Shown here piece after piece: positions 1 to 27,356 of a stretch of DNA of 64,000 bases; within the stretch, counting starts at the first letter, position 1; the number at the start of each line of letters is the position of its first letter. The stretch spans positions 20,646,001-20,710,000 of the forward strand of contig OX579635.1 of NCBI GenBank assembly GCA_951230915.1. The letters are read 5' to 3'. The stretch is from Antitrichia curtipendula. Lineage: Eukaryota > Streptophyta > Bryopsida > Hypnales > Leucodontaceae. Both the position numbers and the translations under genes were made by a program. Under the pieces are notes generated by a model. It had not been told where the DNA came from, made no database searches, and saw only the letters and a list, made by a program, of their open reading frames with translations.

Positions 1-165
1 GCCATGTTAGAGTTCAGGCTGCCAATACAGAATAAATAATTAGGCAAAAATTGAACATCTCCGACAGGATGCAAAAAATTAGTCTCAAAAATGTAAACGG
101 AATATAGAAGGTGGTTTAAGTTTATACATTTGAAATTTAATAAATCAATGGAGTACTGGATAGAC

Positions 166-3100
166 TTACTTACTGAATCGAGATTTCTTCACAATGTGGG
201 GAATTTCAAGTTCCATAGCGTCCTCATCCTCAGAATATAAAAGGATTGTTGTATTCGGATTTGGGTCAGTTGGAATTGCACGAATCATAGGGGCCAAAAT
301 ACCATTGAAAATGGCTTTGTCTTCCTCGAGTGCAACAATGTGCCTGCTCAAAATCCTAGAGGCATGGATGGAGGTTCCTAAAATTGGAAGAAAATCAAAT
401 TGGGATGTTAGAAAAACAGGTTCAAAGGTGGAAAGTCGATATAAAACGAAAGACTCAGAGAAAAAAAGCCAAGGCATCAAAAGTTACTTGTTGCAGTAGT
501 GCAGTCCAAAACAACATCATTGGGAAGTGAGCATGATTCTATCAACATTTGATAGAATCAAGGATCTTTCTCACGCGCCCCTCTCCAAGGCTTGGAGTTG
601 CTGTCCATGGTCAAAGTCTCACGCTTGGTAAAATTCTGAAGGATATCATCACGAGGGACATTCACCCCTAATTCTAGCAAGCTTGGACTCGATTGGAATT
701 TGAACTTAGGAAGACCGATCCCAGGCAACTTCCGCACAAATAAGGCAATTCCAAAAACTTGGGTCTGGAATAATGAAGGCACATAAAAATGTTAAAATGA
801 TATAACATGCAGTATAACAATCTACACGTATAAATAAAAATCAAAGGTTCATCCACAGCAATAAAAGACAAATAATTTTTGACATAAAACAGCATTATAG
901 GAAAAACTAAAATTGTCAAAAATGAAGGCATCTAGTAAAACAAAAAGAATTTAAAAAGCAATTACATACACTTCAATGAGAAAGGTAAAATGAATGTACC
1001 GTTCGTGAAGGTGACACTGGTGAGGCTAAATGTAACCAGTTCATACCCCACCAATCCTTCATCTTTTCAAAAGAGTAGATACTAGCAAATCTTAGAATAG
1101 TGGCTTTCGTAATCGCCTTGAGAGGATAAATAACAATCAAGGCGCCGTTGTCATGTAGATGACTATCAGCAAATTCGAAAACTGCCTCTAGTAAGGCTAG
1201 GTTCTCCACATTCCACATTGGAATGCTGTTAGCAGGCACAGATAATTCAGGGACAAGTAATCCCTCTGGCAAATCTGCTAAAATCAGATCATTGCGTGGT
1301 TTTTCACTCGGCGCACCCTTGAAGAAGCGTACCTTCTCACCCTTATGCTGCAAAAGAAGTTGCACGATCAAAAAACAAACATAGGAAAAGAAGTCACAAA
1401 CTAATCATGAAGAGATATGAGACTCCTTACCTTATCCATGAAATTGACAATGTCGTCGTACACTTGGGGTAGAGGATCAGCCATCACATCTGTAAGTGAA
1501 AAATTAAGGATCAACTCAAAGATATGAATCTCTAAGTCATCTAGAAACTCCACGGCTGGAGGACCATGTACCATGCCACCATCACTGAGTGACAAGTACT
1601 CCGCATCTCGCTTGGTACCTCGTGAAAAGGATCTTTGGTGTTCCGAGGCAGCGTCTTGAGTGGCTGACGGTTGCACATGCTGCTGCGTTTTCTTCCCCTT
1701 GCCCTTCTTAGTTGCTGATGCCTCCTCAGCCTGAAGTTGTTTCAAAGCCTTCTTCGTGAGTTTCTCTTTGGCCTTGTTCACCGCCTCTGAGTTCTTCAAG
1801 GCTATTTTCGAGTCAGCCTCTTCCCTCCTCTTCACAGCTTTAGCTCTCGCGTCTTCATCAAGGGCAGCAAACTCATCGTTGTACTTCTCCCTGCTATGCG
1901 AATTGAGTGAAAGCTTGAGCTCCTCCTCCAGCTCTGGCGTGAACTCCGGTGGACAGTCCAAATACCATGCATCGGACTTCAAGTGCAAACTCGTCCACCA
2001 TTGTAATTGAGATGGAGAGAATATGCAATGCTCAGAAGAAGCATCCAACCACGTAGACAAAAACAAGGGCAAATCTCGCTTAGCAATGGCACCTTTTGCA
2101 AGCAACTCATATTTGAAATATCTGCACATGCAAAACATGGCAACCGGTCTTAGTAATGCCTTACGGCCAAATATTACAGAAATCACCAAATCAAAAGAAA
2201 TGACAGAAAAAAAGGAATTCATACCGGAAATTTACACGTTTGACCACCAAGTCAGTGCCTTTGCACTTTCGGAAGTCATCTGACTTCTTATAGCCCTCCT
2301 GCCCCCTGAAATGACTTAGAAACGCCTTGTCCCAAACACGAATCCTCCATCCTTCAAGATAATCTGGAAAGGTCTCCGGCTCTTCAGGAGAATCCATAGT
2401 CAATACCAATTGGTCCTTCTTGGTAATGTCATCAAACATTTCAGACCCGAGCTCTTCAATCTGTGCAATGAAAGAATTTAGTAATGACATTGATAGAAGT
2501 CCCTGAAGTCAAAATAAACATTATGCACAAATGAAGGAAACAAATCATTTTCTAAATAAAAGACAGTCGTGATCAAAACTTATCGATGCATACCAACAAG
2601 CCTTTGCCAAGAAGGACTTCAATTCGTTTTCCCCAACTGGTTTCACTGGAAACCTTTTGGCCTTCCGTGTTTCATTTGAGCAATTCCACCATTGCAGCCA
2701 CTTGATTTTGTGCTCACTGCTGACATTTGCGGTGGCAATCATTTGCAACTTGTCCAGGGTCATTTCTGGAGCGATATTCTGGGTCCAATGCTTCTCAATC
2801 TATATCAAGAAGAATAAGGAATTAGAACCATTCAGTAATTAAGAAATGGGCAGTCAATGACATGAGTTAATCAAAGAGGTTTTACCTCTTTAAGGAAATC
2901 GCAACCAAGCTGGGGATTAGCAACTGCTGTCAACTTTTCCAACTTCTGAGTCAATCTGGATGTTGTATCCTTTGTAGCCATTCTCATGGTCGTCAAAATT
3001 CCTTCTGGTGATTGATCCTCCTCCGCAGTGTCTTCTTTGTATTTCCGAACTGCCAAATCAGTTGATGCTGCTATCTCATACTGGTCCAGAACAACGAAGT

Positions 3101-5690
3101 GAGAAAACCTCATACGTATGAGCAACTATGAATATTACATTGATGCCAACAAATCAGAAGTTGTAAGAAAAATACAAAGAAAAGCCTGAATAGAATGATT
3201 ACCCGGAAAATAAAGGATGTGAAAACTTCCACAGACATTGAATACCAACTCTTCCGAGTGTTTAAAGTGCACTGAGACATCTCTGATGCACTTAAATGCT
3301 CCACAAATTTGTCCAGTGGGAGAACTCCATATTTCTGGACACGATATAACGTGTGTACCAAATTTGTTTTGATAAACGAATTCTCAATATGTCTGTAGAA
3401 AAGAAGACATGTGATCAATATGGTAAAAAATATTTGAAAACAAATACAACGAAATGAAACCTAGGGAAAGATACACTTACTGGTTAATATCATGCATAGC
3501 ATGCATTACTTCACCGATTTTCTCCTTTGTCTCCAAAATTATTGAATCCACCGAGATGTGCCAATCCTGGTCGTTGGCATGGTGCTGAGCAATGTAAGAA
3601 GACCATGCCAACAACCTGTGGTTACCATCGCAAACAAAGAATTTGGAAGACTGATAATCTTCCAATCCTGGTGTTGCCTGTAGTGCGGCATTGAACTTGT
3701 CGTTCTCAACATTCCACAGTGGCCCCCATGCGTTTTTGTCAGCCTCAGTTACCTGCTCAATCTCACCTTGCTCGTTTGTGATTGATACATAAAACACACT
3801 GGATCCATCTCGATAGCCGTGAACAAACTCTTGCTCAAGTCTCGTCAGATCACATTGAAGCGCTGGGCGAATCATAGGCATCACTGCAAGACGACATAAC
3901 GGAATTCTCAAACGAGATATAGAATTCGGTTTCAATCGCAAAGCTGAAATGGAGGCCATAGAATTCACTTTCTGTGCCTTCCGAAAGGCGTCCTCCGTGA
4001 TGAACTCCATTTCGCGGTTCTCTCCTTCTTGCACTGACGTTGTCTTCTCTGGTTCCATATCGCCAACAATGTGAACTTCCTCCACAGCTGCGGATAGAGA
4101 GTCAGATGATTTCTCCGCCATTTCCTATAGTGGAAGAAACAAGAATCATGAGAATAAAAATTTCTTAAAGTTCGAATGAGAAGAATGAGAACATCAAGAA
4201 CAAAGAAACTAGTATAGAAATCAGTTGCAGAAATCGTCTACAACTCGGAGACATTCCACACTCAACACTAAAAGGTGGACAAGGACGCATCGCGAGGAGC
4301 TTCCCCTCGGCGCCGAAACTAATGACCCAGGGATCCAAATCAGCGAAGTAAGGTCGACACTGGCGCATCCTAAGGAAGCCCAACCTTCCCCTCGAAGCCG
4401 AGCCTTGTGACCATGGGGTTGACACCAGAGAAACCTAGTCGACAGAGGCGCACCACGAGGAAGCCCAACCTTCCCCTCGGGGCCGTGACTTGTGACCATG
4501 GGGTCGACAACAGAGAAACCTAGTCGACAGAGGCGCACCGCGAGGAAGCCCAACCTTCCCCTCGGGGCCGAGGCTTGAAAATTCGGGCGTGGACAGGTAG
4601 GTAACAAGGTCGACAGAGGCGCACCGCGAGGAAGCCCAACCCTCCCCTCGGGGCCGAGACTTGAGAGCATGGGGTCGACACCATAGAAACTTGGTCAACA
4701 GAGGCGCACCGCGAGGAAGCCCAACCATCCCCTCGGGGCCGACACCTGAAAATTTGGGGGTCGACAGGAAGGTAGCGAGGTCGACAAAGGCGCACCACGA
4801 GGAAGCCCAACCTTCCCCTCGGGGCCGAGGCTTGAGACCAAGGGGTGGACACGAGCAAAACGAGGTCAACACTAGCGCACTGCGAGGAAGCCCAACCCTC
4901 CCCTCGGGGCCGACACCTGAAAATTCGGGGGTGGACAGGAAGGTAACGAGGTTGACAGAGGCCACCGCGAGAAAGCCCAACCGTCCTCTCGGGCCCGAGA
5001 CTTAAAAATTCAGGGGTGGACAGGAAGGTAACGAGGTCGACAAAGGCGCACCGCGAGGAAGCCCAACCCTCCCCTCGGGGCCGAGACTTGTGACCATGGA
5101 GTCGACACGAGCAAAACGAGATCGACACTAGCGCACTGCGAGGAAGCCCAACCCTCCCCTCGGGGCCGAAACTTGTGACCATGGGGTCGACACGAGCAAA
5201 ACGAGGTCGACACTAGCACATTGCGAGGAAGCCCAACCCTCCCCTCGGGGACGACACCTGAAAATTCGGGGGTGGACAGGACGGTAACGAGGTCGACACT
5301 GGCGCACCGCGAGGAACCCCAATCTTCCACTCACGGTTGAGACTTGAGACCACAGTGACTCAAAAGGGAGAATATCGCACCGCAAGGAAGCTAAAACTTT
5401 CCGTCGGAGCTCAGACTGACCAGGGAGAAGTTCAAGTAAATTTACCTGTGTTAGTTCTCCATCATCACCTGTCGGGGGGGCGCTAACGCTTGTATCGCCA
5501 TTGCCTCCGCGACTCTCTGCATCGCTTCTCTGCCCCGTTAGTGCGGCACGCCGTGTTGATGGCCTCCTCGTCATATTGTTCAATCCCTAAAAATAAGATA
5601 CCAGAACCCACGAAACCCTAGGTTAATCACTGAGACTATGAACTTCCAATGCGTGTAGCGCAATCAATCAGCGGAATTGATAAACTCACC
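166..5690 (-). CDS. ParB-like domain plus methyltransferase-like protein, multi-exon
   Basis: Spliced minus-strand gene; ATG at 5574. Coding exons read from GT-AG sites: 5574-5446, 4124-3481, 3392-3203, 3125-2886, 2799-2594, 2502-2225, 2121-1431, 1347-1000, 764-575, 377-166. A 5' UTR intron (5689-5587) precedes the start exon. Exon 2 has CDGNHRLLAW (about residues 208-217) after RIPLCRL..MPMIRPAL, the ParB/Srx-type DG-x-HR signature. Exon 7 is Lys/Glu rich, probably coiled coil. Exon 8 has LILADLPEG followed by W..LLEAVFEF and DNGALIVIYPLK. Exon 10 has TSIHASRILSRHIVALEED. This order (motif IV before motif I) matches beta-class DNA amino-methyltransferases, but DPPY is replaced by DLPE and the glycine loop is poor, so catalysis is doubtful. 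Frame is kept at every junction except exon 5 to 6, which is off by one unless a weak GC donor is used. A GTAAGT overlaps the end of exon 10, so the gene may continue past the left edge. The domain calls are inference from motifs. Confidence 0.6.
4260..5430. repeat. 85-bp GC-rich minisatellite in intron 1 of the ParB-like gene
   Basis: About 13 imperfect tandem copies. The core GAGGAAGCCCAACC recurs near 4457, 4543, 4628, 4713, 4798, 4886, 4971, 5055, 5140, 5225 and 5312, a period of about 85 bp. Each unit also has CCCCTCGGGGCCGA and GTCGACA. Units at both edges are degenerate. Because 85 is not a multiple of three, long open frames appear in several frames on both strands; they are repeat artefacts, not genes. 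The array lies wholly inside the intron spanning 4125-5445. Confidence 0.92.
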
Positions 5691-7489
5691 GAGAATTGAG
5701 AACGTGTTATATCCGGACGCGATAGCACGGAATGACCGAAGAGTGACTACGGCCTTGCCGTTTCTGCGAGCAGAGGGAGACCCTGTACTCGTTGCCTTGG
5801 TTCCTTGTTTTCTCTTCCAAACTTCGTCACGGTTGCACGTTTTGGTTGCGTCGCATGTACACTCAGGTGCACACTGTGGTCGCGAGCAGATTTTCGAGAG
5901 GGATATTCTTTTAATACGGCCTGTATACGTGTCCGCAGAATTCTCTCTAAATCACACGATATTTGAGCACTTCATTCTACTCAGTTTGGTCACCTAATGC
6001 CATGCTTTCATTCTCATTAGGATTTATGTATTGAATTTTTACTGAACAGAGGAAAATAGTTTATTGTAATCTTAATACTTGGATACTCTTAGTAATGATC
6101 TTCTAAATTATGATTATAAATATTTGTGGTATATATCATATCTGCTGTTACTCTCTATGCTATAAACATACCCTACTAGGTAATAATAAAAATAAAATCA
6201 ATAATATAAATGATTATAACTTCATAATTCATTTATGCACACAATATCGACGTAGCTCCTACAACGTAATACCACAGTGATTTCAATTTGATATTTCATA
6301 CCTTTGCTTTGCCTTCTTCGTTCTTGTTGTGAACTACTTCGTCTTGATTGATGCAAAGGCTGGTACATGCCTTTAGAAGTGTCTTCTCATCCTGTCCAGT
6401 AATCCTGCCTCGAGCAACTTGGGCCTGATGCAATGCTTTCCTGGAAGAGAACAAAAGCTTTCTTCTCTTCCTCCGCTTCCTAATTGTATTTTGAAGACCA
6501 CTCTCGGTTTGATCTTCTGTAGCATGCATGAGACTAACGGATCATACTGCAGGGTGACTATATTTGAAGTGTATCTAAATTGAAGGAATGCGAAGACCAC
6601 ATACTCTAATAAGCACTTAACTCTGCTATCAGGGCATGACGTAAAATTCTATAATCAAATCCTATTGAGTTCTCTAGAATTGTTGGATATGCGTTGCAAT
6701 CTTCATTTTATAGGTTGCTATAGTGTCTGTTGTGACAAAGTTCTAATTATTAGTTCAATATACTGACCATTGGAAATATACGTTTTGATCCTTGTCAGTT
6801 TCTGCATTGAGGAATTTGATTACATAACTCTAATGTTGATCTACCAATGTATTCAACAGTCACTGGCATCTCCGAGTTTTGAATTTTGGGATACGGTAGT
6901 TGGACTATATGATTTTTCATATGTGAGGCTCTTAGATCACTAGCAGCATCATGTCAGTGATGGGAAATAAAATCTACTGAAATCAATTTTTAAATAATTA
7001 CGGTTAACCATCTTGATGGACTAAAGTCCCTATACCATGTCCCTTTAATGTATGACTCTATATAGTTCAATGAAAGCTGTGGGTACGTTTATTTGTACTT
7101 CATTGAAAATGGTAGTTTTCACCTTATGCATGCGTGCTATTTATGCGCAATATATATGGAACCTAGATCTACTATGTAGGCGAATTTATTTTGGAATTTT
7201 TGTGTACATCTGTTTATGAGTTAGGTAAGACAAACAGCTCTCTCATAGAGAATTTCATATACTTGAACATTTAAATAATGGATCTATATATTGAAAACCG
7301 GAATTTACATTAAATGTTGTTTTGTCATTAATAATATTATTTACCACATTCCGGCTCCATTATATCCATGCATAGGTTCATTTTCTCCTTTTATATTGTG
7401 TATAAGTTCCATCATTCATTTAATCTCAAACTCAACATCAAGGGCTTTTCATAAGTGACTAACCATTTCCGGTCTTACTTCTTCTTGCA
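5691..7489. promoter_or_regulatory. Shared intergenic region between divergent ParB-like and transposase genes
   Basis: About 1.8 kb lies between the 5' UTR exon of the minus-strand ParB-like gene and the ATG of the plus-strand transposase. It is mostly AT-rich. No confident TATA box or operator could be picked out. The small open frames here (for example near 6296-6600) show no family features. A divergent promoter is inferred from gene orientation only. Confidence 0.4.
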
Positions 7490-10400
7490 ATGGCATCCGT
7501 TCGAGCGGATGGCCATGAGATTCCACTTGTTCTCCCTCTTGGACCAGAAGGGTATGCTGTTGTTTCGTTACACCTTCTTCATGTGCGATTTGGTTTTGTC
7601 CAGTCTAGTGTCTACGTTGAAGAAGAGGTCATGTCCGACTCTGGCCACCTGAAGGAGTACGTCCATATGGCTAAGTTAGAACTTCATGACGGTCATGTCT
7701 GGCACCTTCAGCAAGGTCGCTTTAGAGCTTATGGCTTGTTGCCTGTCATGATGACTGCTTCAACTGAGATTTTACCTCGCCATTCAGACCATTCTACCGT
7801 GAATATGCCTCCTACTCGTCATAGTACTAGGAATTCTACAGATCCCGAAAACGTTGCCGTTGCAAGTACACCAATTCCACTTCTACGCGTGAAGCAAGAA
7901 GTCTTGGGCCCTGTCATAGATCTCTCTAGTGAGTCAGAGGGAGAGTCTCCTAGCCAACCAAATCTTCTAGCACCGCTGCCTAATAGAGTTTTGGACGATG
8001 TCTTGACAAAACCTTCCGGTTCATACCAGTCACCAACGAGAAGTCCTGCATTGTCGACCCATTCTCGCCCACCAACATATCCTCATAGTATAGGAACGAT
8101 TAGTATTGTTGGGTGCTTACGGAAGCTTGCATCAATTCGTAAATCCAGGAATGAAATTGCAGCTTTAGACTACAATTCACTGATCCATCACAAAGTACAG
8201 TATCTTCCCGCCGATTTTGATGGGGATGTAGTGTTTGAATTGCCTTCGCTTCGTGTGTCATCTTCGTCGTCTTCCGGGGGGAATCTACAGGGAATGGATA
8301 AAAAGTACGATGGTCATGCTTGGTGTAGGACCATGACAACCAACATCCACAACCAAGATGGCTTGAAGTTCAGAAAATTTTCTTGTGCAGGCCACCTGGT
8401 GTGTTGCAATTCGGACTGTGCCTACTTGAAGCGGTTCTCAAAACGCAATGAGACAGGGTGGTGTGGATATACTCTAGTTCCATTCTATGTTGGCGCTAAC
8501 CCTCCAAAGGATTCATGTCTTCTGTGCAAGATATGCAAATGTCCACCGCAGTGTCTTAGCATTTGTGATGCCAAAATATATTACATCCACAGCGATACTG
8601 CTCTAATGACTCGAGCATGCATTCACTTAGGTAATCATATGCATCATGTAGCTTCTGGAACATGTAGAGAGTCCGTAGATACTATTTCCAGTCTAATTGC
8701 ATGCGAAGTTGCCAAAACCCCGACTGCCACTAACTCAGCCATCGCCCTTGCCGCTAGTAAGCAATTTCTAGACAACTATCTGATACACAATGGAGAGGGC
8801 CCTAAGGAGATGTTGCAGGGAAAGTTGTTAGAGGATGTCATGGATAGGTTCCAGAGGCTAAGTTCACTGAACATCCGTAATATTACTACGTCGTTCCGTA
8901 GCACTAGCAAGAATGGGGTTATAGATAGTATTATGAATATAAAACGGAATTTAAAGTTTGAGTACATTCATGAGAGTGTGTTCCCTGGACAAGGAAAAGA
9001 GAAGGTATACTTGTTTAAAATGTTGGTGGAAGGGCCTGGGAGTGGAGTGGACTTGGTAAGGCGCATGCAACCAGGTGGAGATTTGGAAAATGCATGGCTC
9101 ATGTTTGATCATGTCAAACGTGTGAAGGATTGGACAACCATGGCATGCCGCGTTTATGACACAGATTGTAGGAAGGTGATGACAATTGCCGTCTGTGACA
9201 TGCAATCTGAGGACACCGAGGTGCAGAGCATCATGTGGAGATTATTGAATGATGTCATGAGACACAATGGCGTGCAAAATCCGAACTTCAAGGGCTTTAT
9301 GGCGGATAGTGCACAAGCTAATTGGAACGCTGTTCGCATTGTGTATGGAGCGGGGGATTCCAAAATAGAGATGGTCAACCGTGAGCGCACTTGTCTTTTG
9401 CATTGGAGTACTTCATTGCATCGTCATACCCAGAAGCTCATCAAACCAGATCTGCAACATCAACATCTTCGTCTATGCAAGCAATATAAAGATTCAAAGA
9501 GTATGGAAGAAGCTGAGACGCGGTACTTGGCGATTCGTTCTTGGTGGCTTTCATCTGGAGCAGCCTCTGAAGACGCATTGTGTGAATTGGAATTGTGGCT
9601 TGCGTTTTGGCACTTCCGATATCGCCAATGGGGTGGCTTCATGCAAATGGTATTTTAATCAGTCCTTCATTTCTTCTACAATATCTTCTGTAGAAGTGTA
9701 CTTTTCTTTCATAATGTTTTTATTCAAGAAGTATTTGTATTTATTTATACTCATAAGTTCCGTCAATGAAAATGAGATTTTGATCACCATAGGACGGGGG
9801 CCTTTCCCCTCGGCGCCGAAGGGACACCTTGCCTCTTAGTAGAATCCTAAACTTTTTAGTGATAGGCCAATATCAATAGTGTGGCTTTCTTTTTCGGCTG
9901 GTGATTGCAATTTGATTTGAAGTATATATTTATTTCCTTTTCAGGGGTTGAATCTCGAGGAGATGGCAGACATGCCATCATGCAATTTATTTGAAACTGT
10001 TCATAATAGATGGCTGCAGCAGTCCGGTAATCGTGGTAATGACCTCTTTGATGCCACCTGTGATGATTGCATTCGAGCCTTCATGCAAATGACGAATTAT
10101 CGAGCATTCCTTAATGGCACTACATCAAGGTCAGGACCATCAAAAGAAGAGTTGAAGTTACGAGGCGCTAGACGTAGTGGAGACCCAAAGAAGATTGCAG
10201 AGGCGTTGAATGATCTTCCAAGCCTGATTGATGTTGGAACACGTATTCCACACTTGGAAGGCGAAGAGGTGTTTGGTAGTAGCAAACGCAAGCTGGACGT
10301 CCCCATTGGTTCGGATGGTGATTCTCATCGTCCGGACAAGGTCAACTTCTCTCAGCCACGGGTGCAGAGACGATCTACTGGTACATCCACGGTGCCTTCC

Positions 10401-11351
10401 AATGATGGAGACATGTTGGTTAATTCTGTGCATGTACCACATGTCACAACTGCAATGGAGAGTGATTGTGACACCTCGCAATGGCACATCACAAGACTAT
10501 CCCATAAATCTAGCTGCAAATGTCATGCCCAACAAAAAGGTACAAACATCCGTTGCGTCGCCAAAATTGCAAAGGGATCTAAAGGGACTCCTGCCCCAAC
10601 ATATCGTGGTCGGAAGAAACAGTATGGAGGAAACAAGGAGATTATGACCGACTTCTGGTTTTGTCCAGATGATATTGAACGATGTGTACGAGGCTCTAAG
10701 CGTGCTTGGGTAATTGACTGGCCTCAAGTACCGGACATCTGGCCTGTACTAAGTGACACCAGTTTGACCCGCCAAGAAACACTACTGTTGCAAGAAGCTG
10801 GCTTTCAACTCCAAAAGCGACCTCCTATGTCACCTCGGCGTTTGTTCACAATGTTGAATGTTTTCAATGCAATCCTTTACGATGAACCTAGCCCATTGCA
10901 TGCGGATACATATCCATCAACTCGAAGAAGCAAGGCGATTCGACGTATTGCAAATGCTCCTACTACAGAGCATCGCAATAAATGGGAGAGTGCTGGTAAC
11001 GTCAAAGGAATGATCTTGGGGGTAACCATGCTCCCCTTCCCTGGACTTGGAGCCATAATCTCCCTTCAATCTGGAATGGAGCCCATGCAAAAGGTTTATC
11101 AAATCACGCTTGGCATGTACTCAGAATGCACTTGTCCCGATTTTGTAGACATGGCCGTCTCAACGATTGGTGGCCGCCATCAATATGTGAATTGCAAACA
11201 TCTTTACTACTTATTCCGTTACTTTTGCAAAATGGATCCAGTAGATGATAAGTTTATACATTCTCCAAGCTTCAGTTTTAATGAAGTGAAGCTCCTTTTC
11301 ATTAGGGCTGGTATCATTAAGACTTCCACTGAGAATCTAGAGCATGCCTAG
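7490..11351 (+). CDS. MULE-type transposase with Cys/His module, SUMO motifs and SWIM finger (intact)
   Basis: Two coding exons, 7490-9649 and 9945-11351, joined in phase 0 across a 295-bp GT-AG intron, giving 1188 aa. The N-terminal part has a psi-K-x-E SUMO acceptor motif (VKQE, residues 134-137) and a SUMO-interacting motif (VIDLSSESE, 142-150). A Cys/His-rich block at about 275-392 (SCAGHLVCC, CKICKCPPQC, AKIYYI, RACIHLGNHMHHV) is compatible with a WRKY-GCM1 or FLYWCH-like zinc cluster. The catalytic core fits the MULE pattern: D540 (LMFDHVKR), D606 (FMADSAQANW), CLLH at 635-638, and E737 in CNLFETVHN. A second Cys cluster lies at about 911-967. A SWIM finger is at C1115, C1117, C1137, H1139. 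The start ATG has a good context (GCAATGGC). It may be an active transposase or a domesticated FAR1/FHY3-like derivative; terminal repeats were not found. Confidence 0.8.
9650..9944 (+). other. Intron of the intact transposase
   Basis: Begins GTATTT and ends TTTTCAG; phase 0. It contains at about 9805 the 17-mer TTCCCCTCGGCGCCGAA, which also occurs in the edge unit of the minisatellite in the neighbouring ParB-like gene (about 4301). Confidence 0.85.
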
Positions 11352-12014
11352 AAGAGCCACAGGTGTTGAGTGATGAAAATGTGAGGGTGGGTGACTCTAG
11401 CCAAAAATTAAATATAGAGTTTCAGAAGTATGTATTTCTGTTTGGACAAATATTGTATTTGCTGCCGCATTCAGTTCAAGCCTATTTTCAATTTCAATTT
11501 CAATTTCTTGTGCTTCTATTTTTTCCTTCATAATACATCCTTTTCATATTTAAGACCTAATCCCAAAAAAAAACCCTACAACAATTGTATATACGCACGG
11601 TTATAGGTCAAGAATCCTAGTTTCCACAGTAATCGATACACAGTCATTGTTCCACGGTAATAGGGTGGTATAGTTTAAAAATTAAAATTAAAAACCAAAT
11701 TGAAATTATTATCTATTTTTATAAATATTTCTGACATTTAACGGAGAAAAAATCATTTCAAAATTCACCGCTCGCATAATACCCGCTCACCGCTCGTAGG
11801 CTCATGCTCGCAGGCTCACAATCTAGCACCGCTGCCACAAGCCGTATGCACAGCCGGAGAATCACAACGTCGTTGACAAACCCTCATTGACATTGAATTT
11901 GTAAATTCACCCTCCTGTATCACGCCGCTGCAATCCACACTCATGGCTGCCTGGTTAACTCATTTCCTTCATCACTCGCGCTAAAACCCTAATCTTGGAA
12001 ATGGAAGAACTTAC
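11352..12014. other. Intergenic, no gene seen
   Basis: AT-rich 3' flank of the intact transposase, then a short stretch with several CGCTC/GCTCGC repeats (about 11768-11820). The rest of the ParB-like gene that should follow the orphan exon to the right is not present here. Confidence 0.6.
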
Positions 12015-12254
12015 CACTGGAGGTGGTTGCACTGTAGACTCTATGTTCTCCGTTCCTTGCTTGTTTCGCCGTGACCTGAGGTTTGGTCGCTGAATCTCCA
12101 TGTCGAACTGCCAAACACTCCACCCGAATAGAAGCCTGAAAAATCGTGAGGACACAACCGCAAGCATTGACTAAGGAAATGAGAATTTGAATGAACATAC
12201 AGTGCAGTGAAGCAAGCAACACAATGAGAAAATATCACACAGGCAAATCATACC
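12015..12254 (-). pseudogene. Orphan 5' end resembling the ParB-like gene
   Basis: Minus-strand reading gives a possible 5' UTR exon ending CTCG at 12254, an intron 12253-12136 (GTATGA...TTTTCAG), and an exon 12135-12015 with ATG at 12101 followed by a strong GTAAGT donor in phase 0. The 29 codons begin MEIQRPNLRSRRNKQ. The ParB-like gene to the left has the same plan: a UTR exon ending CTCG, a 103-bp intron, then a short Arg-rich ATG exon (MTRRPSTRRAALTGQ) with a phase 0 donor. No later exons follow, so this is read as a truncated copy. Similarity is short and the call is inference. Confidence 0.4.
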
Positions 12255-13529
12255 GAGGTGCTTCTTCTTTGGCGGGTGAGGGTGGGAGATCTCAGCGATA
12301 AGCTGCTGCTTGGAACTGGAAGGATTAGGTAGCCGCCGAGAAGGGGGACATCACCAGCAATGGGTGAGGCTTCATCGGCAGGGGGATCGGGGTGTCATCC
12401 ACCTGGTGATTGGGGTGTCATCCACCTAAACTCCATATTCATTTTAATTAATACATATAACTACCACCTTTAGAAGGTAAAGCTAAATACATTGGAGGAA
12501 TTCAGTTCAGGAAATTCACTATCACAAAATCCTTCGACCGGGGGTACCCTTACAAATGACCATTCAACTTTGGGGTTCTTTACATATTGTGTGTTAATGG
12601 ATAGCACAAACTGATGAACCTGATTCGTAATAGAATTAGAATTCCAAATTACTCTCGTGTTACATCTTCAAATCCACTTTGGAAGTGACGATTACGAGTA
12701 CAGTGACGGTTATGGATGACGCCAACTTAGACTGCTCCTTGATCGTTCAGGATTTGCTACTGAGATTATTGCAAATGTCCTACGAGTTTTATAATTTACA
12801 GTATATTCAGTGGTCATGGATCTTGGAAATACAATGACTAATTTCGGATCCTTCCATTATAGAGATTCTTTTTACGTTGGACGTACTGTGGCTAACCACC
12901 CTCGAAGGGCCGGCTTTGGTTGTGTAACGTGCATTTAATTTGAGATGGGTGTGCTATTGTGCGAGTTGTAAATGATCAACCACTTATTCCGATGAGATTT
13001 TAGTAATCATTCACATTTTTTCGTATACGATTGACTGTATTTTATGAGGACATATTTAGTGAGTAGGAGTGACAATATCCTGACGGTTGTCAGTGGTTGT
13101 TGGACTTCATAGTTCGGGTTTACTTGGAAGTATACATTGTATTGCATAACATTTGGATTTAGTATTTGTATTCTGAAGTATAAGTATTCTTGCAACAGAA
13201 TTATGAATGGTACCTTTTCTCATAAATTGTTTTTTGTTATTGATTATGTTCGCTGGATTGGCGGTTGGGTATATGCCTGGATTTTCTACGTCAGTTGCCG
13301 TAATTTGCGTTATCTACCATTATGGTGGGAAAAAATTGATCACCTTCAAATGACGGGTACTAAGTAGGTGGGGGTCTTTATCAACTTGGGCGTCCTTTAT
13401 TAGGAACGGATTCAATTTGGCCACTCTCTCAATGTCCAGACCTTTGCAAATGATCCATCTCTTGCTCTTGTTTGTGATTCTTGTGTCATTCACTGATATG
13501 CTTAGTGATACTTCTCTTGTGCACTTCCG
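12255..13529. other. Intergenic, upstream of decayed transposase
   Basis: Contains a short direct repeat (GGTGTCATCCACCT, about 12390-12428) and otherwise unremarkable AT-rich sequence. No supported gene was seen. Confidence 0.5.
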
Positions 13530-16500
13530 ATGAGTGATGTCAGTTTACGCAATTCAATGGCACTTGTGCGGACATTAGGAGATGCGGTTCCGATATCTTT
13601 TCCAGTTAGGGACACGGGATTTGCGGTCGTGTGTGCATTGCGTTTGAGTATTCGTTTTTGCCTTTCTGATACCTCAATGCACATTGATGAGGAAATTTTT
13701 GATAGTACCACCAGAGAACTGTCCCATACACTAGTCCAGGAGCCTATCCAAGACCATATCCCTAGCATATGGCATCTGAAGCCGGGTTCGTATGTAGTGT
13801 ACGGCCTACCCTTGGCTAGTGGTCACTCGTCTAATGGGGAGGTTTCGCTGAAATTGTCATCGACTAGTTCGTATCAGACGCCCCTTACATCACGAGTGAA
13901 AATAGAGCCTGGAGTTGATGTTATTTTAGTTGACAGTGACGAATCAGACGACTTATCACCGCCGCGCAAGCTTCGAAAACAGATGCCGTCTCCTTGCCGT
14001 CCAGTTGCAACACCATCTTCTGTACCTGATGCAACGCTGTTGAATACCTCTACAAGTGGATCGGGCTTATCCATTATTTCATGCCTTCGAAAGTTGTGCC
14101 ACATGAAAGGGTCACGGAATCAGTTGAAGAAGATAGATTACGATTCGATTCCAGTACATCAAGTCGACTTCGTCCCTCCAGTGTTTAATGGCGATATCAT
14201 ATTTGAGTTACCAGCGCTCGGAGAGTCGAGTCAGCAAAGTCAGGTGAAGCTTCTAAGCGGGATGGAGAGACGCTATGACGGTCACGTTTGGTCCAACTTG
14301 CATACGACTAACATAAAAAATGGAGACGGGTTGACATTTCGGTTATCAGCTTGTGTTGGGCACCTTCGTTGTAGAAATGGCGACTGCGAGTATCTATCAC
14401 GTAAGCACCGTGTGGCAGTTACAAACGAAACGGAATGGGATGGATGTTCTCCTGTAGCTTTTGAGGTCGGTCCTGTCCCTCCTCCTGGTTCTACCATTTC
14501 ATGCAAAATTTGTTGTGAGGTCCCCATATGTATTGCTACTTGTTCTGCTAAGATATATTACGTAGTTGGGATGTCGGGGACGCGGCGAGCATGTGTTCAC
14601 CTCGGATTTCATAATCATCCTGTGAAAGACGGAGACTGTCGTGCATCGAAAGAGAGAACTCGGAATCTCATTTCGGATCAAGTGGAGAGGAACCCTTCTG
14701 GGACGAACTCTTCTATTATTTTGGAGGCAAGCAAGGAATTTTTGGGAGGGATGCTTCTGCGGCCGGAGGGAGCACCATCAATTAATCTTGGAATGGATGA
14801 ACTCGTGCCAATTATAGAGAAGTGCAAGTTCATGAGTTCGCCGAGCATTCGAAACGAAGTCACTACCTTCAAGTATTTTAGGAGATTTGGTGTAATGGAT
14901 AGCATTCTAAAGCTACGCGGCTGCAACAATTGGGCTTATGTTCAAGAAAACATGTTTCCTAGAATCCTGGTCAGGGCTCGGATTTGGACAAGGTCTTCAT
15001 TTTTAAAATGTCAGAGGTTGGATCGGGAAGTGGCATTGATCTGGTGGAACGAATGCAAAAGGATGGTGACCTTCAAAACTCTTGGATCATGTTTGATCAT
15101 GTCAAACGAGTGAAAGACTGGACAACTATAGGATGTCATGTATACAATCCCATTTACTGCAAGGTCATGACAATCGTTGTCTGTGACATGCAATCAGAGG
15201 ATACTACAGCACAAATTTCTTTTTGGACAAATTTGAATGCGGTTATGGAAAGGCATGGAATTCCCTTGCCTAATTTCAAGGGTTTTATGGCAGATTGCGC
15301 ACAGGCAAACTGGAATGCAGTGAGAATCGTCTACGGGGGTGGTGATCCCGCACAACCTATGGTCAATCGAGAACGTACTTGTTTATTTCATTGGACGCAA
15401 TCCATGGAGAAGCATACAAAAGCAAACATTCGTTCGGATCTTCAAGATCAGCATCGAAAACTCTGTAAGTAGTATAAGGATGCGACTTCGTTAGCAATGG
15501 CAGACATTCGATTCAATGCTATCCGAAGTTGGTGGCATTCATCCGGGGCGGCAACCGAAGCTAGGATTCATCGCCTCCAGCTATGGCTCGCTTTCTGGCA
15601 CTTTCGTTATAGACAGTGAGGAGGCTTCATGCAGATCGTAAGATTATCCCTTGATTTCATTCTTACTTTGTTTGAGGTATTCTGGATGTGCATGTACAAA
15701 TATGTTAATATGGAATTCTGGTTTGGCTTTTAATCACATCATAGAATGGCATTGACTTCTTTGACATGTACTACCGCCAAGTATAATGTAGGCGTTAGTG
15801 AATTGCTACCTACAAGCATAATGATGTCAGCATTTGTTGAAATCTTCTTTGAATCCTGGTTATCATGTTTTGTCCATAGGATTTGCCTGCTCATGAGGTG
15901 GCAGAGATGCCATCTTGCAACTTGGCAGAGACGGTCCATAACAAATGGCAGCAACAGTCAGGCAAGCGAGGAAATGATCTATACGTTGCAACGGTTGATG
16001 ATTATGTAAGAGCATTTATGCAGATGGTTCGCTATTACCAATTTTTGAAGGGTGAGAACCCCGGAACTGGTCCAGGCAAGGCAGATTTGCAGCTCCGAGT
16101 AGCGCAGCGTTATGCGCAGCGCACTGGGGATCCCAGAAAGCTAAACGATGCAATGCAAACTATCCCGGGTGCTGGTGAATACTGCAAAAGGGATCCTCAC
16201 TTACCCGGGGCGGACGCCAAACCTGCCGTTAGGGTTTGAGCATGAGTCACATCGCTCGGACAAAGTCAATTTCTCCAGACCTCGGACGGGAACGAGAAGA
16301 ACAAGGGCGAGTACATCAACTACTCCTCTTGATACAGTTATTGAAGAAGCCTCACCACAAGATACAAGGACAATGTCGGATAATCCTGGTGGCCCTGTAA
16401 ATGCGCCATCCACTTCCCAGTCTTTTCGAGTACTCAGCGTCGAGGAGACTTCATGCGATCAGTCAAAGTGGCATATTGCTAGACTGCCAAAGACTTCGTC

Positions 16501-17320
16501 GAAGGCGTGCTTTGCCTTGCAGGCTATAACAAGGAAAAAATGTGTTGCAAAGATTGTCCAAGGCAACAAAGGAACCGCTGCTCCAACTTACATTGGCGAC
16601 ATGGATTGTTACCAAAAGAAAAGAATTGAAAGAATACAATTTTTCTTCTGCAACGACGACATTGAGCGCTGCGAGAAAGGTACAAAGAGAAAATGGGTAA
16701 TGTCTAAACCCGATGTGCCTTGCATTTGGCCAGTCTTGAAAGGAACAAATCTTACGCCTGCGGAGATACTGCAGCTTCATAATGCTGGCTTCCGTCTACC
16801 CGAACGCCTTGAAATGTCACCACGCAGGCTTTTCGGTGAATTCACTTTACCGACCGATTTATCGGATATCAATGTTCCTGATTTTCCAGCACAGCATCCG
16901 AGCACCAGGTCTGGAAGGAAAATTCGGAGAAACCCAACTGCTCCTACCACGAAACAAGCGAACAATTGCGGTTCTGCAATTACCTTGATGGCTGCTGTAC
17001 GACAAATAACATTGATTCCCCATCCAGGGTTTGGATGCATTGTTACAATGGACTCTGGTATTGAGCCTAACATTCAGCAATACATACTGACTATAGGGTC
17101 ATATCCAGAATGCTCATGTCCTTATTTCAAAGAAATGTCTACTAAGGCACTAGGGAAGAGAGGACAATGGGCCAATTGCAAGCATTTGTATTTCCTATTT
17201 GTTGTCATTTGTCGCTTGGATGCAAAAGTAGATGATTTCATTCATGCTCCAAGCTTCAGCTTTAATGAGATCAAACACATTCTAGAGAGTGGGATTTTGC
17301 GGGGCACTAGCATTCTGTAG
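13530..17320 (+). pseudogene. Decayed paralogue of the MULE-type transposase
   Basis: Same two-exon plan as the gene at 7490: exon 1 13530-15637, intron 15638-15879, exon 2 from 15880. Collinear motifs are all recognisable: SUMO acceptor VKIE and SUMO-interacting VILVDSDESDD, the Cys/His block (AKIYYV, RACVHLGFHNH), MFDHVKR, FMADCAQANW, CNLAETVHN and the SWIM finger (CSCPYF...NCKHLYF). Lesions are: a frameshift near 14960-14970 where about 8 extra bases (AGAATCCT) follow TTTCCT; TAG at 15470-15472 replacing the Gln codon of CKQYKD; TGA at 15617-15619 replacing the Trp of RQWGG; and a frameshift near 16237. The copies have diverged widely at the protein level, so the duplication is not recent. 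Confidence 0.88.
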
Positions 17321-25312: not shown

Positions 25313-25448
25313 ACCCCGCCGCCATTCTCATTCGGTCTCTTTTCTCTGCGGCATTTTCGCGAGTACGTTTAGTGAGAGAAAGAGTGGTGAGATAGGATCA
25401 AGGTAGGAAGCGGAAGTAAGGTCGGTGCAACTCCGGAAGACCGACAGG

Positions 25449-27356
25449 ATGACGGAAACCCGAGCCCGTAGACTAGCGGTGACCGCACGGACTGTCAGCC
25501 CGGCGATTCTGTTCGATACGGATCGCCATAGAGAGTTGCAGGAGGATTTAGAGACCATGGGCTGTGTCGGATTCTTACACCGCCCATGGGACTTGAAGAG
25601 TGAAGGAATGATTGAGGAACTCCTTTACGGAGTTCCCAATCAGTATGAGTTGACGGTGAGGGGCCGCCCGAGAGCGTGGACACAAGAGCTCTGGGCCGGA
25701 ACGTACTTTGCGCTGAACCGGGGGCATGGATGGGCCGGCCGGACGGAGAAGTTCGCGGCGGAAAGATTCCGGAACTCCGCCGACCCAAAAGAGGGGTTTG
25801 CAGCGACGGATTGCGTGTACGCCTGGGATCAGCAACTCTTAGAGTTCCTGATCCCCATCCTATATCCGGAAAAGCCTAGCCGGGTGACCACCACGGTGGC
25901 CAACACCATTTTGGGGGCATTAGGAAACAGGGTTAACCCGCCCCCAAGACCCGTAAATTGGGGCGGACTTATTCACACGATTGTGGATAAGTTAGCGAAT
26001 GGGATTTCAGGACGGAAGACCAGTTACATTAGCCCGTACTTGTTCCATTTGTACCACCGGATGGAAACCCTGAGCGAGCCGGAGCAGCTTATGTACAAGA
26101 AAAGGGAAAATCTCCTCAAGTACGGGCTGAGACCGGAACCGCAGCCGGAGGAGCCGGAATCCGAGGAGGAGGACGTTCCGGAGGAAACACAGACCACTCC
26201 GGAGAAGGCCGGAACCAGTAGGCGGAAGTCCACCGACCGGACAGCGCGAGGGAAACAAGTGGCGGAAGGTTCCGTCCAGCCGGAAAGCCCGCACGAGGAG
26301 TTGGATCCAGTCGAGAACGCCATACATTGGCTGCGAACAACAAGGACGGTGAACGACCGGATGGCAGCAGTACTCCAAGACGTTTGCCATTCGTTAGGAG
26401 TGAAGGACGAGAGAGAGATCTTGGCCGCCATCGCACGAAGACCAAATCCGGATGACGTCAAGGTTCTGTACGATCAGATCCGGAGTCTTCAGGAGGAACA
26501 GGATCAGTTCCGGAGCCAGCACCAGTGGTCGGAACGGGAGATGCACATCGCGAACCGGAAGTCCACGGAAGCGATGGCTCTAGTACGGAAGCTGGGTGAA
26601 CTGATCGACCTTCCGGCCAACACCATCTCGAGGGCCCAACTCTGGAACTCACAGATGGTGGCCCAAGGCCACATTACCGGAACGAAGGTCGTACTCATCC
26701 TTACGGATTTCAAGGCCCGGATGGAGGGAGTGCTGAAGAAGATGCGACAGCTGATTGGAAGCCTCGATCCGAACCTGCTTGACCAAGCAATGTTCGCTGA
26801 TCTTCCGGGAGGAGAGTTCCAAGAAACTCAAGGAGCCGGAACTTCAACGGGAAAGAGGAATCCGGAAATCCCGACTCACGTGGTCACTTATCCGGAGGTT
26901 AAAACGCCGAAAGAAGCAGGTACGCAGACCACCGTCCAGGAGGGGACAGCCGGAAGACAAGCGGCGGTAAACCTGTTTCCGCCTCTCCAGCTGACGGAGA
27001 CGGAAGCCGAGGCCATAGCAGCAGCAAGTGTCCGGAATCCTGCCCGGACCGATCCGGACAGGTTTATGCATATGCAGAACACTCCACCACCAGCGAATCC
27101 GGGCAACACCGTCATTAATTTTACGGAGACAAAGACGACACGGCAGCGACACACGAGGATCGAGGAGCCGCTGGAGATCGATGAGACGGAAGAGGAATCT
27201 GCGGAGTCTCACTCCCAATCGGATGGGACGGATTCTGATCCGCCTCAGATCCGGACTCGGTCGGCAACGAAGAGGACTCCAGCAAAGGTAACTGCCCGGA
27301 AGTCCACTCCAGCGAATCTTAGGGCCGGACCATCGACAAAGAAGCCTCGCAAATGA
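25449..27356 (+). CDS. Gag-like or plant-mobile-domain protein, 635 aa
   Basis: Uninterrupted 635-aa ORF; the ATG at 25449 is the first in frame after the TATA box (an upstream in-frame GTG at 25425 is less likely). The N-terminal 210 residues look globular and Trp/Arg rich (WAGTYFALNRGHGWAGR, WGGLIHTIVDKLANG, YLFHLYHRM). This is reminiscent of the N-terminal domains of plant TE-derived and gag-like proteins, but no precise family is claimed. An acidic linker follows (about 218-250), then a helical, probably coiled-coil stretch near 330-400 (LYDQIRSLQEEQDQF), and a basic Ser/Thr/Lys-rich tail ending STKKPRK, a possible nuclear signal. There is no zinc knuckle, protease or polymerase. Codon use follows the CCGGA bias of its surroundings. 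Confidence 0.6.
   Translation: MTETRARRLAVTARTVSPAILFDTDRHRELQEDLETMGCVGFLHRPWDLKSEGMIEELLYGVPNQYELTVRGRPRAWTQELWAGTYFALNRGHGWAGRTEKFAAERFRNSADPKEGFAATDCVYAWDQQLLEFLIPILYPEKPSRVTTTVANTILGALGNRVNPPPRPVNWGGLIHTIVDKLANGISGRKTSYISPYLFHLYHRMETLSEPEQLMYKKRENLLKYGLRPEPQPEEPESEEEDVPEETQTTPEKAGTSRRKSTDRTARGKQVAEGSVQPESPHEELDPVENAIHWLRTTRTVNDRMAAVLQDVCHSLGVKDEREILAAIARRPNPDDVKVLYDQIRSLQEEQDQFRSQHQWSEREMHIANRKSTEAMALVRKLGELIDLPANTISRAQLWNSQMVAQGHITGTKVVLILTDFKARMEGVLKKMRQLIGSLDPNLLDQAMFADLPGGEFQETQGAGTSTGKRNPEIPTHVVTYPEVKTPKEAGTQTTVQEGTAGRQAAVNLFPPLQLTETEAEAIAAASVRNPARTDPDRFMHMQNTPPPANPGNTVINFTETKTTRQRHTRIEEPLEIDETEEESAESHSQSDGTDSDPPQIRTRSATKRTPAKVTARKSTPANLRAGPSTKKPRK

Follow-up and report, generated by a model that had tools for sequence, protein, structure and literature searches.

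A two-gene DNA transposon of the moss Antitrichia curtipendula with a ParB/methyltransferase-like partner gene and a fast-evolving inverted-repeat array

We analysed a stretch of 64,000 nucleotides from the moss Antitrichia curtipendula (GenBank assembly GCA_951230915.1, contig OX579635.1, positions 20,646,001 to 20,710,000 of the forward strand), hereafter the window. A preliminary description, made from the letters alone, had recognized a minus-strand gene with ParB- and methyltransferase-like features (ATG 5574), which we call the partner, and a plus-strand transposase (ATG 7490) assigned to the Mutator-like elements (MULEs), the two diverging from one region. Both genes are present as described, and we are as good as certain that they are carried by a single DNA transposon, element A, whose parts are as follows.

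1 to 11834: element A; its true left end lies 1,021 bases before the window, giving 12,856 bp in total.
166 to 5574, minus strand: partner gene, 10 coding exons, 1045 residues, modelled from reading frame, splice signals and the other copies.
5574-5446, 4124-3481, 3392-3203, 3080-2886 and 2799-2584, minus strand: partner coding exons 1-5.
2460-2225, 2121-1431, 1347-1000, 764-488 and 377-166, minus strand: partner coding exons 6-10.
166 to 1347, minus strand: methyltransferase-like domain of the beta class (exons 8-10), with ADLPEG as motif IV and a motif I-like LDC...
3481 to 4124, minus strand: ParB-like region, by motif only, in exon 2 (IPLCRL ... VCDGNHRLLAW).
4272 to 5352: minisatellite, rich in GC, within intron 1 of the partner; about 11.7 copies of an 85-bp unit.
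5575 to 7489: divergent region between the genes, including the 5' untranslated region (UTR) exon of the partner and a 103-bp intron.
7490 to 11351, plus strand: transposase, exons 7490-9649 and 9945-11351, 1188 residues.
9650 to 9944, plus strand: transposase intron, holding one copy of the inverted repeat described below, CTCGGCGCCGAA in the window.

The partner's UTR exon ends in CTCG at 5690 and is followed by the 103-bp intron (5689-5587) and the short Arg-rich ATG exon at 5574. The transposase reading frame is open across all 1188 codons.

The extent of element A was set by its dispersed copies in the genome (400 Mb, in 303 contigs), and both genes fall inside its ends. The termini, CAGGGTTGCTATTTTGTGAGCC and, reversed, CAGCGGTGCTAGATTGTGAGCC, form imperfect terminal inverted repeats (TIRs) with 30 of 36 terminal bases alike; the right end, at 11834, reads ...GGCTCACAATCTAGCACCGCTG. 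Both ends were found at 10 of 12 loci, eight belonging to family A and one each to the diverged families L030 and L031, while the locus at C10:12.8 Mb has the right end only and that at C2:31.9 Mb neither. Flanking the two-ended copies is a target-site duplication (TSD) of exactly 10 bp, matching at all ten bases in eight of the ten, at nine in the window copy (ccacaagctg and ccacaagccg, the right copy at 11835-11844) and at eight in one; no match appeared in the flanks in the 8- and 9-bp registers. A TSD between 8 and 11 bp is what is expected of MULEs, and so are TIRs, although some MULE groups have none. When nine copies were aligned to the window, three spanned from -1021 to about 11834, broken only by minisatellite differences, four were cut only by the extent of the stretch taken, and those at C2:31.9 Mb and C10:12.8 Mb gave partial matches. 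Copy alignment, which the preliminary description had proposed as a route to TIRs and to duplications of 8-10 bp, did locate the ends.

We also followed its suggestion to search the genome for recurring divergent pairs. The transposase was searched by its exon 1 (62 scored places of 1868 candidates) and by a conserved core of 166 residues (the best 150 scored of 1333 candidates), and the partner by its exon 2 (the best 150 scored places of 1290 candidates); neither list of 150 is a census. A partner lies divergently upstream within 20 kb at 54 of the 62 exon-1 places, at distances of 2.4-19.2 kb (median 4.1 kb). Among the remaining eight, four have a partner 24-64 kb off in the right orientation, C2:31.9 Mb holds a partner remnant, C1:41.745 Mb has a partner in the other orientation, and two have none among the matches listed. 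Within 25 kb, a divergent upstream partner accompanies 120 of the 150 best core places (104 of 133 without one amplified cluster), and 119 of the 150 best partner places are paired with a transposase. In family L029 there is no partner within 9 kb; a partner exon in the right orientation lies about 34 kb upstream. At C1:41.4-42.1 Mb there are 16 copies of a single element with near-equal scores and identical stops, several of them about 40-48 kb apart, which look like the product of amplification of a large segment.

Could the genes be chance neighbours, the transposase alone being mobile? The 30 transposase places among the best 150 that have no listed partner within 25 kb (31 partner places are likewise unpaired) speak for this, but the 120 divergent pairs compare with a mean of 0.67 per 150 under random placement (200 trials, with rough values for three chromosome lengths), and both genes sit within units bounded by TIRs and TSDs. 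The chance of it is vanishingly small, and for the copies examined it is excluded.

Both genes are under purifying selection between families. For the partner, nonsynonymous and synonymous differences per site (pN/pS) between element A and other families were 0.20/0.70 against L031 (959 codons), 0.25/0.81 against L030 (930 codons) and 0.36/0.85 against element B, an older element introduced below (826 codons). For the transposase they were 0.21/0.59 and 0.19/0.62 against two diverged families (333 codons each) and 0.38/0.79 against B (1129 codons). Synonymous sites are near saturation between families, so that a synonymous rate (dS) was computable in three of six comparisons. Within family A the mean ratio of nonsynonymous to synonymous rates (dN/dS) is 0.44 over 28 pairs, a figure that includes decay after insertion and for which frameshifted copies were retained in the register of the window copy. 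The partner of the window copy is interrupted by a single premature stop in exon 9, and its splice donor after exon 5 is altered; when exons 2-10 of the ten-exon model were followed exon by exon through eight family-A copies, all eight had at least one stop and two were also frameshifted. No intact partner was found among the copies compared. Because of the TIRs, the 10-bp TSDs, the recurring divergent pair and the purifying selection on both genes, we conclude that the two genes form one mobile unit, as had been proposed; transposases regularly lacking the neighbour, or ends leaving it outside, which had been named as grounds against a shared unit, were not what we found.

A second, apparently duplicate pair had been noted to the right of element A, and two features there belong to element B.

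11955 to 12170, minus strand: exon 1 region of the element B partner (ATG 12101, short Arg-rich exon).
13530 to 17320, plus strand: decayed transposase of element B, frameshifted.

This transposase is diverged as well as decayed, with 35-64% protein identity to that of element A in the matched pieces. The plan said to be shared by the two units was borne out: here too a UTR exon ends in CTCG, and an intron of 118 bp, from 12253, precedes the Arg-rich ATG exon. The exon at 12101 had been called an orphan, which it is not; it is exon 1 of the B partner, whose later exons were located to the left of element A, at about -7.9 to -11.8 kb; five of the pieces there show 42-51% identity, and two C-terminal ones 33-35%. 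Since these exons stand to the left of element A and a 224-bp, 27-copy repeat lies between them and the 12101 exon, with element A at the repeat's right edge, the second copy is an older element into whose partner intron 1 element A inserted, splitting that gene. No TIR/TSD pair was found for the ends of element B. Farther along the window, a GC-rich open reading frame of 649 codons at 25407-27356 (plus strand) matches no Pfam family at an E-value of 0.1 or below. A legume-lectin receptor kinase gene and a ferredoxin-NADP-reductase-like gene are in keeping with a land plant as host.

The divergent region of element A holds one further conserved stretch.

6299 to 6529, minus strand: conserved stretch with a basic open reading frame of 77 codons, core RKRRKRRKLLFSSRK.

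It has matches in L029, L030 and L031 and none in element B. We considered it as a third gene and dropped the coding claim, as other frames match the diverged families equally well or better; the stretch may be conserved regulatory DNA.

The assignment of the transposase to the MULEs agrees with the TSD and TIRs and, less firmly, with the fold. In a Foldseek search with a model of exon 1, the top three hits were chains of ISCth4, of the IS256 family (probabilities 1.00, 0.92 and 0.82). No Pfam transposase family matched either exon at E up to 1. Candidate catalytic residues are D540, D606 and E737, with C635/H638 in addition, and from residue 1115 there is a SWIM-like CxC...CxH pattern (CTCPDF...CKH), also without a Pfam match. 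We therefore call the element MULE-like by its TSD, its TIRs and, with more reserve, its predicted fold, and set it in no named MULE group. Placement among the Kyakuja-Dileera-Zisupton (KDZ) transposons was ruled out by TSD length (10 bp here, 7-8 bp there).

The double label given to the partner stood in one half. Profile comparison shows its C-terminal half to be a homologue of the beta-class DNA methyltransferases: a profile of five partner sequences matches DpnA (3.3e-5), CcrM (5.7e-5, a match spanning most of the methyltransferase domain) and, weakly, MboIIA (0.015). A homologue from a fern, P0066, passes PF01555 at 27.2 bits against a cut-off of 26.7; exons 8 and 10 of the window partner, scanned alone, gave no Pfam methyltransferase match. 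Across the moss genome the PF01555 profile has 30 sub-threshold matches, the best at 21.3 bits. The ParB half is a motif-level label, kept as such because profile searches found no ParB match: Pfam, PHROGs, NCBIfam and PDB profiles did not confirm the homology, ParBc (PF02195) matched neither partner exon 2 nor six aligned members, and no ParB chain came up in the PDB profile search, so that the sole basis is the pattern IPLxRL...GNHRLxAW. Scanned one at a time, exons 2, 4-8 and 10 of the partner had no Pfam match, and hence neither of the domains that mark VANC of the VANDAL transposons (DUF1985/DUF287).

The fern Adiantum nelumboides has 42 partner-like proteins (P0001, P0052-P0092), several of which contain Pfam domains that are unrelated or come from retroelements, a pattern that one might expect if the family were dispersed or mobile there too. 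An AlphaFold model of P0001 was discarded for its low confidence score (pLDDT 47.9). A tblastn search of phages with P0001 returned weak pieces, the best at E 0.6, with all 15 listed under methyltransferase genes; in three such genes from two phage regions, no ParB fusion was found.

Might the partner be an active base methyltransferase that marks the DNA of the element? Its homology to adenine-specific beta-class enzymes runs across most of the domain, and motif I is near-canonical in the fern proteins (LDCLAGCG). The catalytic motif IV of beta-class DNA methyltransferases, however, is (D/N/S)PP(Y/F/W), and none of the five versions compared, four from the moss genome and one from the fern, preserves it (ADLPEG, ADMPEG in two, VDVSEG and ADLPTH, broadly D[LM]PE-like where catalytic DPPY would stand); the GxG of motif I is lost in all four moss versions. 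Because motif IV is altered throughout, modification of DNA by the partner seems unlikely, and we regard an active enzyme as very improbable. The earlier proposal, that the partner modifies or binds DNA to protect or target the element, is half supported: a binding role would fit the conserved inverted repeat of the arrays.

The minisatellite in partner intron 1 is no peculiarity of the window. In eight families or subfamilies, Tandem Repeats Finder detects a large minisatellite in the interval from partner exon 2 to the transposase; the unit lengths are 85 (A), 84-86 (C6 and C4:37.3), 117, 255, 64 (L029), 141 (L030), 107 (L031) and 224 bp (B); the arrays of A, C6 and C2:31.9 are mutually related. 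The array is intron 1 in A and B and sits 5' of partner exon 2 generally, exon 1 not having been identified in L030 and L031 and the L029 array having been placed by its distance to the transposase. What these arrays share is an inverted repeat, CTCGG-NN-CCGAG (10-base core CTCGGNNCCGAG). The window array has 11 such sites with at most one change, spaced at 85-86 bp; five are exact, and these are all the exact sites in the window, where 0.01 would be expected. Among 15 stretches, exact sites occur in 11 and sites with at most one change in 14, the remaining one having neither; L031 has one-change sites only, and three of six short extra stretches have no exact site. A scan blind to the motif, covering all gapped words of 4+4 bases in six arrays, found 11 words common to at least four families, all of them fragments of CCTCGGNNCCGAGAC and two taking in a spacer base; none of 60 permutations yielded a word common to as many as four families. 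The array is fast-evolving, its unit length and sequence varying by family while the inverted repeat is retained.

The inverted repeat is concentrated in the arrays and in these elements. In ten element copies, the arrays (14,550 bases in total) contain 70 sites and the remaining 178,351 bases contain 10, the latter comprising six at a fixed position in the transposase intron, three at array edges and one elsewhere. Across the genome, matches to the extended motif number 203, compared with 6 for a reversed control. Of the first 100 of these sites, 91 are found 5' of a listed partner exon at a distance of up to 12 kb, another 8 lie within 4 kb of a transposase and 1 is elsewhere, which puts 99 in such elements; 53 fall in a single array on C3, and 46 of the other 47 adjoin such elements. 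The C3 array (C3:5985935-5995647, L028 and leftward) extends over about 10 kb at 117-bp spacing, with at least 53 extended inverted repeats.

These counts bear on the reading that a host transcription factor binds the array, or that the array is a by-product of recombination-prone GC-rich sequence, the partner having nothing to do with it. Arrays of this kind are unstable and GC-rich, the families share ancestry, so that part of the conservation may be inherited, and binding of the array by the partner is something that we infer from sequence. Set against this are the 99 of the first 100 extended-motif sites that lie in these elements and the lack of any other motif common to the otherwise different units. 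A host-factor site would be expected at host genes too, and the near confinement of the motif to these elements therefore argues for a binder encoded by the element; its inverted symmetry suits a dimer. We judge a host factor or by-product to be quite improbable.

An element-encoded binder need not be the partner. The transposase may bind the array instead. Alternatively, the partner could be a cofactor of transposition, serving in end bridging, target choice or immunity, with the array as an internal enhancer or a site of transpososome assembly. Co-conservation of partner and transposase would accord with this, as would the inverted repeat in the transposase intron, which is perfect (CTCGGCGCCGAG) in 6 of 10 copies examined, and mudrB, thought to be a cofactor of MuDR, gives a precedent (PMC6446971). 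But the array is kilobases away from both ends, and the terminal sequences shown bear, in place of the CTCGG motif, GAGCCTGYGAGC-like repeats of their own. We consider a cofactor role unlikely, if less so than a host factor or by-product.

Our preferred reading is that the partner binds the array beside its own gene and counteracts silencing, because the site is almost confined to these elements, is an inverted repeat and is placed much as the VANC21 motifs are, which form tandem repeats in the introns of VANC21 and VANB21 and upstream of VANA21 (PMC5735166); here the array lies next to the partner gene and some 2-5 kb before the transposase starts. The ancestor of the partner would have been a DNA methyltransferase of the beta class, in whose descent catalysis was lost while DNA recognition was retained or acquired. 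The partner would bind the inverted repeats as a dimer or in a larger assembly, might spread along the element, and would open, or hold open, against host silencing the promoter region that the two genes share, to the benefit of the element's own copies, in the manner of VANC on VANDAL arrays and by way of an unrelated protein. That the partner acts through the array at all we think moderately probable. The full account, in which a degenerate methyltransferase acts on the array and counters silencing, is our best explanation and stands at about an even chance; anti-silencing as the outcome, argued by analogy, falls a little short of that. More tentative still is a broader picture of a self-recognition system independent of VANDAL and VANC, in which a degenerate methyltransferase, ParB-like in its N-terminal part, would bind hypervariable, near-element-specific palindrome arrays in a parS-like way, for anti-silencing or for recognition of copies.

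A literature search by title, with subscription papers and Repbase outside its scope, found no transposon with a ParB/methyltransferase-like gene. Several known systems resemble parts of element A. In ParB-parS systems, an array of inverted-repeat sites lies near the gene, and the inverted-repeat array beside the partner gene recalls parS, with the difference that the ParB domain of the partner is known by motif only. CcrM and DpnA share the methyltransferase homology and differ in that the catalytic motif of the partner is altered. SET-domain proteins, which are found in some MULEs, are histone methyltransferases. The MULE superfamily, including MuDR (mudrA/mudrB) and Mutyl (mutB), has a TSD of 8-11 bp and sometimes a second open reading frame, as here, and in many groups a SWIM-type finger, for which element A has a candidate pattern; the part of the survey table considered here lists SET-domain proteins in 14 Phytophthora members and no DNA-methyltransferase- or ParB-like frame (PMC6446971).

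The nearest precedents we found are the fungal TET/JBP transposons and VANDAL. In the former (KDZ and others), a relative of a DNA-modifying enzyme likewise stands beside a transposase and escape from silencing has been proposed; that enzyme, however, is an oxygenase and occurs on several superfamilies, with TSDs of 7-8 bp in Kyakuja and Zisupton (PMC12730594), whereas here a methyltransferase relative with an altered catalytic motif accompanies a MULE-like element with a 10-bp TSD. VANDAL21/Hiun of Arabidopsis encodes the VANA transposase, VANB and the anti-silencing protein VANC (PMC5735166). Element A differs from it in that the partner is methyltransferase-like, whereas VANC has DUF1985/DUF287 (PMC5735166); in having TIRs, which VANDALs lack or have in degenerate form; in a TSD of 10 bp as against 9 bp in the VANDAL group (PMC6446971); in its motif, a CTCGG-NN-CCGAG inverted repeat in place of YAGTATTAY; and in that anti-silencing is a function that we infer. 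The two are alike in being Mutator-like transposons with an extra gene and fast-diverging tandem arrays, in introns and near the genes, that keep one short motif (PMC5735166; PMC10398659). If the partner acts on its arrays, transposons would have arrived twice, by way of unrelated proteins, at one solution, namely an element-coded DNA-binding factor and a fast-changing intronic tandem array that keeps one motif. In the moss the binding protein would be a former DNA methyltransferase put to new use, and sequence-specific self-recognition by transposons would be a general strategy, testable beyond Arabidopsis.
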